From Utricularia gibba (taxonomy: Eukaryota > Streptophyta > Magnoliopsida > Lamiales > Lentibulariaceae), in assembly GCA_002189035.1 (NCBI GenBank), contig NEEC01000004.1, positions 5,146,001 to 5,210,000 of the forward strand: a stretch of 64,000 bases of DNA. The letters run 5' to 3'. Numbering within the stretch: the first letter of the stretch is position 1; each line of letters opens with the position of its first letter. Below the pieces are notes generated by a model. That model saw only the letters and a program-made list of their open reading frames with translations. It did not search any database and was not told the DNA's origin. Position numbers and translations under genes: made by a program. Positions 3,378-54,245 of the stretch are shown here, piece after piece.

Positions 3378-6065
3378 ATGGTATGTGGTGCTGGAAGAGG
3401 AAAAATGTCAGCCTTGACAAGGCACCTGGATACTAGAAGTGTTTCTCAGGGTTTAACAGGTAAAAGTTTGAGGCCATCTAAGGATTACCTAATGTTTCCT
3501 TGTATCCTATGTTCTCTGATCTCCTCACATGGGGATTCCACCATAATTTTTTACATCAGTGAATTTTTCTCTATGTTATTCTACCGTAGAGGAAGCGGGG
3601 CAGCAGAAGCTAACTGCTCAGGATGTGAGAAGCAAATTACTAGATGCTCATGAAGCGAACTTGCTCGATGAAGAAGGTTTGAGATATAGATGAACTACTG
3701 AAAGACCCTGCTTAATCTTAAGGGGCCATGAAAATATAGCAATCATCTTGAGAAAGCGTCTGTAGCAATCATATAGCATTCATACTGGCTCAGACAATAG
3801 GGAGTGCCATCTATCATTTCAACATAATTAGATTGCTGTGCAAATTCCCCATGTTTTGGCTTGATTGGAACTCTACCTAATTGTTGTTGTCTTCATCTCG
3901 TAGATATGGATATCTTTGGCTTGAGGCCGATGACTGATCCTCTACATTTGGTAAGCTTGTAAATTTTACTATTATTTTATTGAGAGGATATGCCAGAACA
4001 CACTGTTGTATGTCAATGTGTCTTGATATTTTGAGATGTGGTTACAAAAGAAGAAAAAACATCTCATGTAGAACATCTTCGAGAGACTCTCCTCCAAGAT
4101 ACGAAAAATAGTAATAATTATCTTTGTTTTGTAGGTATGCTGTAATGCCTGCAAGAAGCCCATCAAGGCGAGCCAGTATGCTGCACATTCAGGTATCCTT
4201 TTTCTTTCTCTTCTATTTGTTGATTAGATTTGGAGATTCTTAGCTTTATTTTTGTTATTATTGATTTGTTTCCCTATAATTAGAACAAGACTTGTCATTT
4301 TAACGTCTGCTCAATCTCTGTTGCTCGTATTCATCAAAAACACGTTGTATTCTCCTCCTAAAGGGATCCTAAACGCACTTTGCTTCTCCAAACTTTTCAG
4401 ATTTTTGTAAGTCATTAAGCTCTGCAGCAATAATCAGCATGGGAAACGCAGTTGATGGGACACCTCAACGGAAAGAGCGGAAAAAAATATTAAATGCACG
4501 CAGGAGTATCCTTCACCCATTCAGCATTTGATGTGGTTTTTTGGCGTTCCTCAGTTCTTCGAAAATGAAGTTCTGAGTAATATCTTACCGAGTAGCTTCA
4601 GGCATTTGATCTGGGATAGGTGGTTATTCCGCAAAGTTGTGGCATAAAATTCTTAACCTATGAAAGAAAAAGCTTCTTCATCGCGAGAGCCTAGAAAATT
4701 CCATTCTGTGAACTCTGGTGACATGGCTGCTCCACAATGTGGTTTAGATAGGCAGATTCAAATGGCTTGTTCGGCTGAAGAAAAATGTACTCTCTTACTT
4801 ACCTTCACCTCTTATCTTCCTGTTAGTTTTTACAAACTGTAGTTTGTTAATATGCTACTTGCACGTATGAAATTGGCAAGATAGTCGTACTGATATCATC
4901 TTCCGGGATTAAAGTGGTTTATTTGTTATTGTTCATTATTGTGATCTTACCCATTTCTTTCTTATTGCAGTAAAAGTGTGTCACGGTTTAACTCCAAAAT
5001 CAAGTGATCCACCCCAAGGTAGGTGGAGTACGAAAAGTGCAACAGATGCAACAAAACCTTCGGTGAAACCGGTCAATGGGTACTTTTTTATGCATATGCT
5101 TTCTTCTTTGCTTTTCAAAGAGAATATATACTTGTGTCCAATTTTTCTGTATTTGATTTATAGATTTATGCGTGCCTTGATGTTTTTCTGGTGAAGGCTA
5201 TTGAAAGAGTAACAGCTTTGCTGATGTATGTCTGTTAGGATGACTGTTGAGAATTCACAAAACACAGATGCTACAAGCTCTTGCAGGAAAGTCGAGGTTC
5301 TTCCGTGTATGTTTCTTTATCCTATTAGACTAGTGAATAGACTGACATGGACTGACTAGTATTAAGCCTGGAACTTGCTTGATTCTCTCTCCTTTATGCT
5401 TATCTTATCCTATAGAGAGGTTTTCCATTGCTGTTGGCAGGGATAAATTCCGTCATAACATCCAGTTTTTTAAAACAATCAGATACTCTGACTCCGCTGG
5501 CAACGAAAATTTATTATTCCCAAAGGACTCATCATCTCCGTACAGCCATCAGGCACATGTTCTTCGAGAGCTCGAAAAACGAGTCTAGCCCTGGGTTCTC
5601 AAATGTAGATGCATTACAAGTATACGTGGACACCCAGGTCAGTTTGTTGGTAGAGACTGCTTATTTCACCATAAAAAAACATTGCTTTATGGAACTAATC
5701 ATGGATATGCATCAGTTCAACTTGTGTTATGTGGGATTTAAGCATTGGCAGCAATGATGTTTAACGTATTCGAACATCAGTTGTGGCTTTATCATATGCT
5801 TGCTCAGGAACACAGCCAGGCACCTGATCAAATTCTCGCATCAAGCTCAGAGGCACACAAAGGCGAATCATCCGGAGTTGCCCATCAGCCCATGATGACA
5901 ACCAGCTTGCGTCGCACTATCAACGAGGGCGCAGCATCTTGCAACCCAGATCCTTATTCTTTCATTAGCAATTCAGGTAACCAAATCTCAGCATTCGAAA
6001 CCCCCCCTACCCCTCAACTGTTCTCAGCATCATCTGATGCAGGAACCTACCTCTCTAATGGCTGA
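3378..6065 (+). CDS. Nuclear protein with ataxin-7/Sgf73-like C2HC zinc finger (about 403 aa)
   Basis: Ten-exon model: 3378-3459, 3590-3676, 3904-3950, 4135-4192, 4401-4505, 4667-4786, 4971-5079, 5239-5306, 5420-5641, 5752-6065. The N-terminus (MVCGAGRGKMSALTRHLDTR) leads into EANLLDEEDMDIFGLRPMTD, followed by a C-x2-C...H-x3-C finger (LVCCNACKKPIKASQYAAHS, then DFC). Spacing and flanks (acidic-DM-x-FG-x-x-P...D...LV-C-x2-C) resemble the first zinc finger of ataxin-7, the anchor of the SAGA deubiquitinase module. A basic RKERKKI patch follows. Farther on come a conserved-looking block (LATKIYYSQRTHHLRTAIRH) and a Ser/Pro-rich tail. Plants keep this as a single-copy unnamed family as far as I recall. 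The last junction (exon 9/10) is uncertain, because obvious donors give the wrong phase. A SAGA role is inference. Confidence 0.75.
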
Positions 6066-49074: not shown

Positions 49075-50271
49075 ATGGATCCTCACAACTCCGACAATAT
49101 TCCATTCCCAAATTTTCATTTCGATCCGAATGATATTCCATTCTTTATGCCTAGCCATAGTGATGTTATCATTGATGCTGTTGAAGTTGTTGTTGATTTA
49201 TTAGAAGATGAACCAAATACGTCTCGAAAGCAAAGAGGAAAGCGTGCATATATTGATCGTGATCGTGAGATGGACAATACTCGTTTGGTAGCAGATTATT
49301 TCTCTATTAATGCTACATACACTGATCAAATGTTTCATCGTCGTTTCAGAATGCGTCGTAGTTTGTTTGAGCGTATTATGTGCAGTGTTCGGGAAGTAGA
49401 TCCATATTTACAAGAAAGCATTGATGCAACAGGTCGTGTCTCATTAACTACAATGCAAAAGTGCACTGCTGCTATGCGAATGATGGCTTATGGATATGGT
49501 GCTGATGCTTGTGATGAATATCTTCGAATTGGTGAGTCTACTGCCCTCAAATGCTTAAGATCTTTTGTATCTGCAATTCGTATTGTATTCGAGACAGAAT
49601 ATATGAGGTGTCCCAATTCAAGTGATATTCAAAAATTGCTTTTATGGGGAGAGGAAAGAGGATTCCCAGGCATGCTCGGAAGTATAGATTGCATGTATTG
49701 GGAGTGGAAGAATTGTGCAATGGCTTGGAAAGGTCAATATAGTCGTGGACATGGTTCGTCTACTGTTATCCTAGAGGCTGTAGCTTCAAAGGATACTTGG
49801 ATATGTCATTCTTTCTTTGGAGCTCCTAGTTCTAATAATGATCTTAATGTGTTGTCTCATTCACCTTTATTCGATGATTTGCATCGAGGTATTGCCCCTC
49901 CGGTCGAATACTTTGGGAAGAAATATGACATGGGATATTATTTAGCTGATGGTATTTATCCTGAATGGTCTGTTTTCATGAAGACTATCACTCTTCCACA
50001 AAATCCGAAAACAAGGTTATTTGCTAGTACTCAAGAAAGTGCAAGGAAGGATGTAGAAAGAGCATTTAGAGTGCTTCAAGCAAGATTTGGGATCATTTAC
50101 TTACCAGCTCGAGTATGGGATCATCAAACGCTTATCAATATTATGTATGCGGCAATAATTTTACACAATATGATAGTAGAAGATGAATGTGATGAGAATC
50201 AGCCAAGCCCTGAAGATTATGATCGATTTAATGTTGGACAACTGCCCAATCTTCTAAGACAAAATATTTAA
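49075..50271 (+). CDS. PIF/Harbinger DDE transposase, intact ORF (398 aa)
   Basis: Uninterrupted from ATG 49075 (MDPHNSDNIPFPNFHF) to TAA 50269-50271. The N-terminal part has FHRRFRMRRSLFERIMCSVR, the helix-rich region usual in plant PIF transposases. The DDE_Tnp_4 catalytic triad can be placed at Asp205 (GSIDCMYWEWKNC), Asp292 (YYLADGIYPEW) and Glu328 (KDVERAFRVLQARFG). The length is normal for the family. A full open frame with all three acidic residues implies recent activity. Because ORF1 in this copy is broken, mobility would need ORF1 protein from elsewhere. Confidence 0.95.
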   Translation: MDPHNSDNIPFPNFHFDPNDIPFFMPSHSDVIIDAVEVVVDLLEDEPNTSRKQRGKRAYIDRDREMDNTRLVADYFSINATYTDQMFHRRFRMRRSLFERIMCSVREVDPYLQESIDATGRVSLTTMQKCTAAMRMMAYGYGADACDEYLRIGESTALKCLRSFVSAIRIVFETEYMRCPNSSDIQKLLLWGEERGFPGMLGSIDCMYWEWKNCAMAWKGQYSRGHGSSTVILEAVASKDTWICHSFFGAPSSNNDLNVLSHSPLFDDLHRGIAPPVEYFGKKYDMGYYLADGIYPEWSVFMKTITLPQNPKTRLFASTQESARKDVERAFRVLQARFGIIYLPARVWDHQTLINIMYAAIILHNMIVEDECDENQPSPEDYDRFNVGQLPNLLRQNI

Positions 50272-52670: not shown

Positions 52671-54245
52671 TCAAACCTCTCTCGGATCAACAAAAATGGG
52701 GTCACCACCGGGAGATTTTATCCAGTCAAAACAAGGGTTGGCTACTCTTAGCCGTTTGATGCACCACAGGTCTTCATCGCAGGAGAAGCGTTTCCAATGT
52801 GGGATCCCGTGGCGGAGAGGGTCATCACCGGAGACTTCGGTGGCCACCACCGCGCAGCCGTGGTCCGCGGCAAGGTTATGGGCGAACCCGGTTAAGGATT
52901 TCATCATCCCCGCTGCGTCGGGACCCTCGCCGCCGAGTCCGTATAGAAAATGAAACCCGAACGGGCGGAAAAAGTCTGGAACCGACGGCAGTCGGAGGAA
53001 CGGCAGAGCTCTGTCCACCACGCGCGTCATCCCCGACAACGCTTTCCTCAATCTTGACGCGCCGCGCACCTCCAGATTAAAAACCTCTTTCCCATTCCAC
53101 ACGCTGAGAACCGCCCACGACTCCGGTGGCCGGACGAGGAACTTGTGGGCTCCAGGCCACGTGTCGGCAGTGTAGGACCCTGTCGGTACGGCGACAAAAG
53201 TGCCGATATTAAGTCTGTTGTTCAGAACGGCGTCGATATCCCCGGGGAAAAACTCCCTCGACGAAAACCGCCGCCTGTAGAAAGTCTCCGCGTCGAGAGG
53301 GCTCAGGCGAATGATGGCCACACGCCGGGGAACACGAACATGGTGCGCAAACACCGGCTGCACCAAAACCGCCGGCGTACGGAATTTCTTATACCCACAT
53401 TTTCTCGTGAAGAGGTTCAGCGACGCCAAGTTATCCTTCTCGGTAGCCATGTACGAGTACTCCGCGCCGCTCTCGACGAACCACTTCTCCATTTTCCGCA
53501 CCAAGTTCTCCCCAATCCCCATCCTCCTGTAAAAGAAAGACATTGCATTTCCCCCATATTACATAAACGCCATTCTAAACATGGAAAATTTACACAAAGA
53601 GATCGACAGAATCCACAGCATGCACAAACAGCAAAGCCTAGAGGAGCATATTGGGGTTTCTTTTCTCAAGTATCGCTATCACAAAAGCGTTGAAAGCCAC
53701 CATATGGTCGACCTAGTGACGTGTCCGAGTCCGTGTCCGGGTCCATGGAAAAGCATGAGGGGCTTACCGATGAGAAGGAGAAACCCGAAGGCCTAAAATG
53801 TAGGCGGCTTTGGTGTAAATAGGAGACGGTTGAGTGGAGCAGTTAGTATCTCCATTCTTGATGGTTCCACAGGTAACGGTCTTGATGCATCCCCTGATCA
53901 CACCCACTATCTCCCGTCGCTCCTTCTCCCTCCCGTCGGCGCCGCCCACTAGCACCAGCTCCGCCACCTGAGTACAGACACGGGGGGAACCGGGAATTAA
54001 ATAGAGCTTGCGATGCAGGAATCTATAGGGGGACAAACCAGCATGAGATGCGACGGGGTGTGGCGAACCCGGCACATGGGGTCACCCAGATGGTCGGTGT
54101 AGAGGCAGAGTTTCCCGGCGGGGCCAGACTCGCAGCGCCGCTCCACCGCCTCCACGGCTCGGCAGTCCTTCTTAGCGTCGTACTCACGAACCACAACCAC
54201 CGCCACCATGGTCTGTGCTTGTTCTCCGGACACTGTATCCGCCAT
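52671..54245 (-). CDS. HLS1: HOOKLESS1-like GNAT-type N-acetyltransferase (420 aa)
   Basis: Exons 54039-54245, 53768-53967 and 52671-53526; 1263 nt. The GNAT core includes MVAVVVVREYDAKKDCRAVE, HTPSHLMLVAELVLVGGADG, REIVGVIRGCIKTVTCG, YTKAAYILGLRVSPSHRRMG with the acetyl-CoA loop RRMGIGENLV, then EYSYMATEKDNLASLNLFTR. The HLS-specific C-terminal half follows: VAIIRLSPLDAETFYRRRFS, REFFPGDIDAVLNNRLNIGT, PESWAVLSVWNGKEVFNLEV, GIPHWKRFSCDEDLWCIKRL, and the end DPIFVDPREV. Arabidopsis HLS1 controls apical hook bending through ethylene/auxin responses. Whether this is the HLS1 or an HLH-type paralogue needs a tree. A TTTATA on the plus strand (54281-54286; TATAAA on the minus) may be its TATA box, about 40 bp upstream. 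Confidence 0.95.

Follow-up and report, generated by a model that had tools for sequence, protein, structure and literature searches.

An ataxin-7-like zinc finger protein of a flowering plant as a candidate anchor of the SAGA deubiquitinase module

The locus and its gene model

The window, i.e. the whole stretch of 64,000 nucleotides analysed here, is plant nuclear DNA. Close to its beginning lies a gene on the forward strand (3378-6065) with 11 exons, introns that are all GT-AG and a single open frame of 361 amino acids, preceded by in-frame stops 5' of the ATG. The model of this gene is predicted from DNA, and its terminal exons are its least certain part. The features of the gene and of its neighbourhood are as follows.

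3378..3459, + strand: exon 1, start codon at 3378 (MVCGAGRGKMSALTRHLDTRSVSQGLT), second in-frame ATG 9 codons further; open frame, GT donor
3590..3676, + strand: exon 2, helix-like LTAQDVRSKLLDAHEANLLDEE, runs into the finger
3904..3950, + strand: exon 3, pre-finger motif DMDIFGLRPMTDPLHL
4135..4192, + strand: exon 4, VCCNACKKPIKASQYAAHS, with zinc ligands C75, C78 and H90
4401..4505, + strand: exon 5, begins DFCKSL..., with the last ligand C94, then the basic stretch QRKERKKILNARR
4667..4786, + strand: exon 6, low-complexity linker
4971..5079, + strand: exon 7, low-complexity linker
5239..5306, + strand: exon 8, linker
5420..5637, + strand: exon 9, C-terminal block TPLATKIYYSQRTHHLRTAIRHMFFESS, helical by prediction, with a weak resemblance to the SAGA-core anchor of ATXN7/Sgf73
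5808..5976, + strand: exon 10, disordered-looking tail
6043..6065, + strand: exon 11 with stop codon
7330-9054, - strand: exons of the next gene, directly downstream of and convergent with the finger gene; presumably beta-amylase-like
49075-50271, + strand: intact single-exon open reading frame of 398 aa, which we take to be a Harbinger/PIF transposase-derived nuclease by its looks
52671-53543, - strand: open reading frame presumed to resemble the plant HOOKLESS1-type N-acetyltransferase family

In the 361-aa product, an N-terminal finger is followed by the basic stretch, a low-complexity linker, the C-terminal block and the disordered-looking tail. When both ends were searched in the genome (100 Mb in 516 contigs, possibly incomplete), this gene was the sole clear match; the viral and prokaryote contigs scanned contained no relatives, and the NCBIfam search gave no match.

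The zinc finger and its nearest known relative

A sequence-only reading of this DNA had located at 3904-4505 a pre-finger motif and a C-x2-C...H-x3-C finger of ataxin-7-like layout. This interval corresponds exactly to three exons (exons 3, 4 and 5: 3904-3950, 4135-4192 and 4401-4505), which together encode EDMDIFGLRPMTDPLHLVCCNACKKPIKASQYAAHSDFC, i.e. a finger of the form C75-x2-C78-x11-H90-x3-C94 with EDMDIFGLRPMTDPLHLVC directly before it. The layout ascribed to ataxin-7 is genuine, since it is present in the PDB sequence of human ATXN7 at 130-170, where 19 of 47 residues are identical to the plant finger in an ungapped alignment. Only the ending has to be read differently: H-x3-C is found in the plant finger, but ATXN7 itself ends with H-x4-H and yeast Sgf73 with H-x4-C. 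Sgf11 does have an H-x3-C ending, as does the fungal SCA7-domain protein of PDB entry 9YNU.

In a search of 177,635 distinct PDB sequences, the finger exons match human ataxin-7 finger 1 best (E 4.7e-4), followed by yeast Sgf11 (E 0.25) and the fungal SCA7-domain protein (E 0.27), the top three matches all being SAGA deubiquitinase-module proteins. Pairwise BLASTP of the plant finger with ATXN7 gives 37.4 bits (E 7e-10), and the likeness extends into the 20 residues before the finger, of which 10 are identical to ATXN7, versus 4-5 for the Sgf11 members. When the zinc ligands are kept in place during shuffling, the ATXN7 match stands at Z 7.5 and none of 200,000 permutations was as good, whereas the plant's own SGF11 reaches Z 3.6 and yeast Sgf11 Z 4.3. 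At 7.5 standard deviations, the match thus exceeds what the Cys/His skeleton or chance would provide. The full-length protein in a phmmer search of the PDB found only Sgf11 (E 0.54) and one chance match, ATXN7 becoming visible with the finger alone. In the reverse direction, the ATXN7 finger produced no useful match in the plant's own genome; with the plant finger divided among three short exons, such a search is blind here.

On these comparisons, the plant finger is very probably related to finger 1 of ATXN7. By the profile and PDB searches, its nearest known relative is ataxin-7 finger 1 and not an unrelated C2H2 or C2HC family.

ATXN7 type or Sgf11 type?

The fingers of Sgf11 and ATXN7 have a common layout (DI-x-G, 12 residues, C-x2-C-x11-H), and this makes Sgf11 the serious rival. 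In an all-against-all phmmer comparison of known SAGA deubiquitinase-module fingers, with ATXN7L3 entered as a sequence that is absent from the PDB copy used, the plant finger and ATXN7 are reciprocal best matches with 28 bits in both directions. The Sgf11 members score 30-48 bits among themselves, approximately 15 bits against the plant finger and 4-5 bits against ATXN7. The fungal SCA7-domain finger, too, has the plant finger as its top match (18 bits), although the 9YNU fragment used is the stretch already aligned to the plant finger and therefore biased toward it. The profile-profile comparison that had been proposed as a check points the same way, with hhalign scores of 51.7 against the ATXN7/Sgf73 profile and 38.0 against the Sgf11 profile.

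Family models are less decisive. Pfam Sgf11 (PF08209) scores 24.5 bits (E 1.9e-5) and 21.5 bits on the plant protein, i.e. under the cut-off of 26.4, compared with 59.4 bits for the genome's own SGF11, and zf_C2H2_13, the Pfam model of the Sgf73 finger, reaches only E 0.067. At 6-7 bits, the plant finger shows no significant similarity to yeast Sgf73 finger 1, and ATXN7 versus Sgf73 is lower still. As PDB queries, yeast Sgf73 finger 1 does not recover human ATXN7 at E values up to 10 and ATXN7 matches itself only; given this mutual failure, ATXN7 has a closer relative in the plant finger than in yeast Sgf73. A profile built from the plant finger and ATXN7 did not recover yeast Sgf73 from the PDB, and Sgf11 appeared at E about 0.35. 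Judged by sequence, the plant finger is also related to the Sgf11 finger, more distantly than to ATXN7, and the first fingers of ataxin-7 and the Sgf11 fingers seem to go back to one ancestral finger of the deubiquitinase module, as the motif and spacing that they share suggest.

The gene could, instead, be an SGF11-derived paralogue, i.e. a duplicated Sgf11-type finger with a new C-terminus that works in or against the deubiquitinase module, for instance on nucleosomes, and provides no tether to SAGA. This is an unlikely origin in our estimation: Sgf11 is indeed the best named Pfam family, the H-x3-C ending and the I-x-A-x2-[YF]-A-x-H core resemble those of Sgf11, and MDIFG is common to the plant's own SGF11 at identical spacing to the finger, but the Pfam score stays under its cut-off, a separate canonical SGF11 with 59 bits exists in the same genome, and ATXN7 is the better match in every comparison. 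The placement of the finger differs as well: it occupies residues 75-94 of 361 and is followed by another 260, whereas that of Sgf11 lies near the C-terminus, behind a long N-terminal helix that binds Sus1/ENY2; an arm of this type was not recognised in the plant protein.

The C-terminal half

Pfam finds no SCA7 domain (PF08313) in the 361-aa protein, which is the reason for classing it as an SCA7-less ataxin-7-like protein and not as a full ATXN7/Sgf73 member; the best SCA7 match in the genome lies on a different contig and has 16.9 bits, below the 23-bit cut-off. Exons 6 and 7 (4667-5079) encode CGLDRQIQMAC...VCH, the first two cysteines of which are spaced C-x9-C as in yeast SCA7. As an SCA7 remnant the exon 6 motif CGLDRQIQMAC was rejected, with the hallmark RSLTCKxH missing and Pfam SCA7 silent, so that a decayed SCA7 domain in this stretch is possible but unsupported.

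For the C-terminal block, comparison was made with the likely anchor regions ATXN7 514-566 and Sgf73 364-433 (PDB-verified sequences), which we take to be ordered parts of these proteins. In what is a low-power test, a profile of two yeast anchors matches the plant C-terminus best at residues 251-288 (2.7 bits, a score equalled by 4 of 500 shuffles), and the human stretch also maps to this block, though not significantly (69 of 500). The yeast and human anchors do not match each other either, which makes this test weak in both directions. Single-sequence AlphaFold predicts one long helix for exon 9 (pLDDT about 65, pTM 0.26), a model not strong enough to be searched against known folds, and the block found no match in the PDB. 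Its weak resemblance to the core anchor of ATXN7/Sgf73 is marginal, partly post hoc and suggestive only.

Discussion

The potential partners of the finger protein are present in the same genome. It encodes a canonical SGF11 separately (C328), ENY2 (C451) and an SPT20 domain (C412), and C3 carries a UBP22-like first exon with a zf-UBP domain, which we assume to be UBP22. In the plant's own SGF11 (L005 1321-1584) and in the finger protein alike, MDIFG precedes C-x2-C at a distance of 12 residues, a spacing that ATXN7 and Sgf11 share as well.

That plants have been described as lacking an Sgf73/ATXN7 orthologue agrees with the literature (PMC6128693, PMC8194025, PMC4532415), Arabidopsis or angiosperms being reported without one in several papers (PMC4532415, PMC4604261, PMC6128693, PMC8194025, PMC7915528); homologues are reported in Physcomitrella and Marchantia and, according to one survey, in early angiosperms. 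Table 1 of PMC4604261 lists Physcomitrella XP_001760795 as the SGF73 homologue and also among its SGF11/SUS1 rows, and this moss 'SGF73' may be an SGF11-type protein. The plant search was done by PSI-BLAST and HHpred with S. cerevisiae SGF73 as the query (PMC6128693); we infer that with so diverged a query a miss in plants is understandable. In the open-access literature, i.e. outside subscription papers and preprints, we found no paper naming a plant candidate of this type.

Published biochemistry speaks against a stable anchor. Tandem affinity purifications of Arabidopsis SGF11 and UBP22 contained UBP22, SGF11 and ENY2 and no fourth module subunit, and the subunits of the module are not robustly tied to plant SAGA (PMC6128693). 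The SGF11 bait also pulled down TONNEAU1A/B, and most UBP22 runs at 100-150 kDa, only a minor part being of high mass. From the missing Sgf73/ATXN7, the plant module has been inferred to be SAGA-independent (PMC6128693, PMC8194025, PMC7915528). Human ATXN7 is built into the SAGA core, with SUPT20H as its tether (PMC8660637).

Starting from the demonstrated gene model and kinship with ATXN7 ZnF1, we infer a role in which the N-terminal finger (aa 53-96) would adopt the ZnF1 fold of Sgf73/ATXN7 and slot into the deubiquitinase module formed by UBP22, SGF11 and ENY2, the basic linker (aa about 112-129) would lead on to the C-terminal helical block (aa about 245-275), and this block would dock on the SAGA core, such that the protein would tether H2B deubiquitination to SAGA. 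This picture of an SCA7-less plant ataxin-7/Sgf73-like protein that links module and core is one towards which we lean, if only just; for the narrower statement that the protein is the anchor of the module, the balance is about even. Of the proposal that the family is a candidate for the missing anchor, the part concerning the finger has stood up, its nearest relative being ataxin-7 finger 1, whereas an SCA7 domain was not found and the similarity to the core anchor is weak. Somewhat more tentatively, flowering plants may have kept a SAGA anchor for the deubiquitinase module in the form of an SCA7-less ataxin-7 orthologue that was missed by yeast Sgf73 queries, with the module attached at least conditionally.

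A true ATXN7-type finger protein may also have left SAGA and now bind the free deubiquitinase module or another partner. The homology of the finger to that of ATXN7 fits this scenario, as do the missing SCA7 domain and the lack of robust co-purification of the plant module with SAGA (PMC6128693), but the C-terminal block with its weak likeness to the core anchor speaks against it, and we regard it as improbable. Least of all do we expect an unrelated plant C2HC finger with an ataxin-7 likeness acquired by convergence: the finger comprises just some 45 residues and a single plant sequence underlies all conclusions, yet the match has E 4.7e-4 across the whole PDB with three module proteins on top, reaches into the 20 residues before the finger and was equalled by none of the ligand-fixed shuffles.

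With a specific gene for an ataxin-7-type finger at hand, the question of a plant anchor becomes directly testable. If the SCA7-less tether exists as proposed, the ataxin-7 finger can be parted from the SCA7 domain in the course of evolution.

Comparison with known systems

With Sgf11, ATXN7L3 and plant SGF11 (PF08209), the plant finger has in common DI-x-G, 12 residues and C-x2-C-x11-H-x3-C as well as the weak Pfam match; in contrast to that family, its finger is N-terminal with a long C-terminal extension, and the Pfam score lies below the cut-off. The fungal SCA7-domain protein (PDB 9YNU chain Q) resembles it in RP-x2-D-x-L-x-L-x2-C-x2-C-[RK]-K and the H-x3-C finger, but has 1273 aa and an SCA7 domain, and matches at E 0.27 only. 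Yeast Sgf73 (PDB 3MHH/6T9I; Pfam PF18508) differs by its H-x4-C ending, its SCA7 domain and an insignificant pairwise finger similarity, whereas both have an N-terminal C-x2-C-x11-H finger (Sgf73 residues about 78-98; plant ligands 75/78/90/94) and a weakly similar C-terminal block PL..[KT][IV]...R with R-x3-[LF]-R, which in the plant protein follows a long linker. Human ATXN7 is set apart by H-x4-H in place of the plant H-x3-C, and by its SCA7 domain, its polyglutamine and its 892 residues as against 361. Its ZnF1 (PDB 7KTR chain N, 128-174), however, aligns with the plant finger without a gap at 40% identity over 47 aa; EDM-x-IFG-x2-P-x2-D-x3-LV-x-CN-x-C...K...H is common to both, and both proteins carry the finger in their N-terminal part and, later on, a C-terminal block, helical by prediction in the plant protein.
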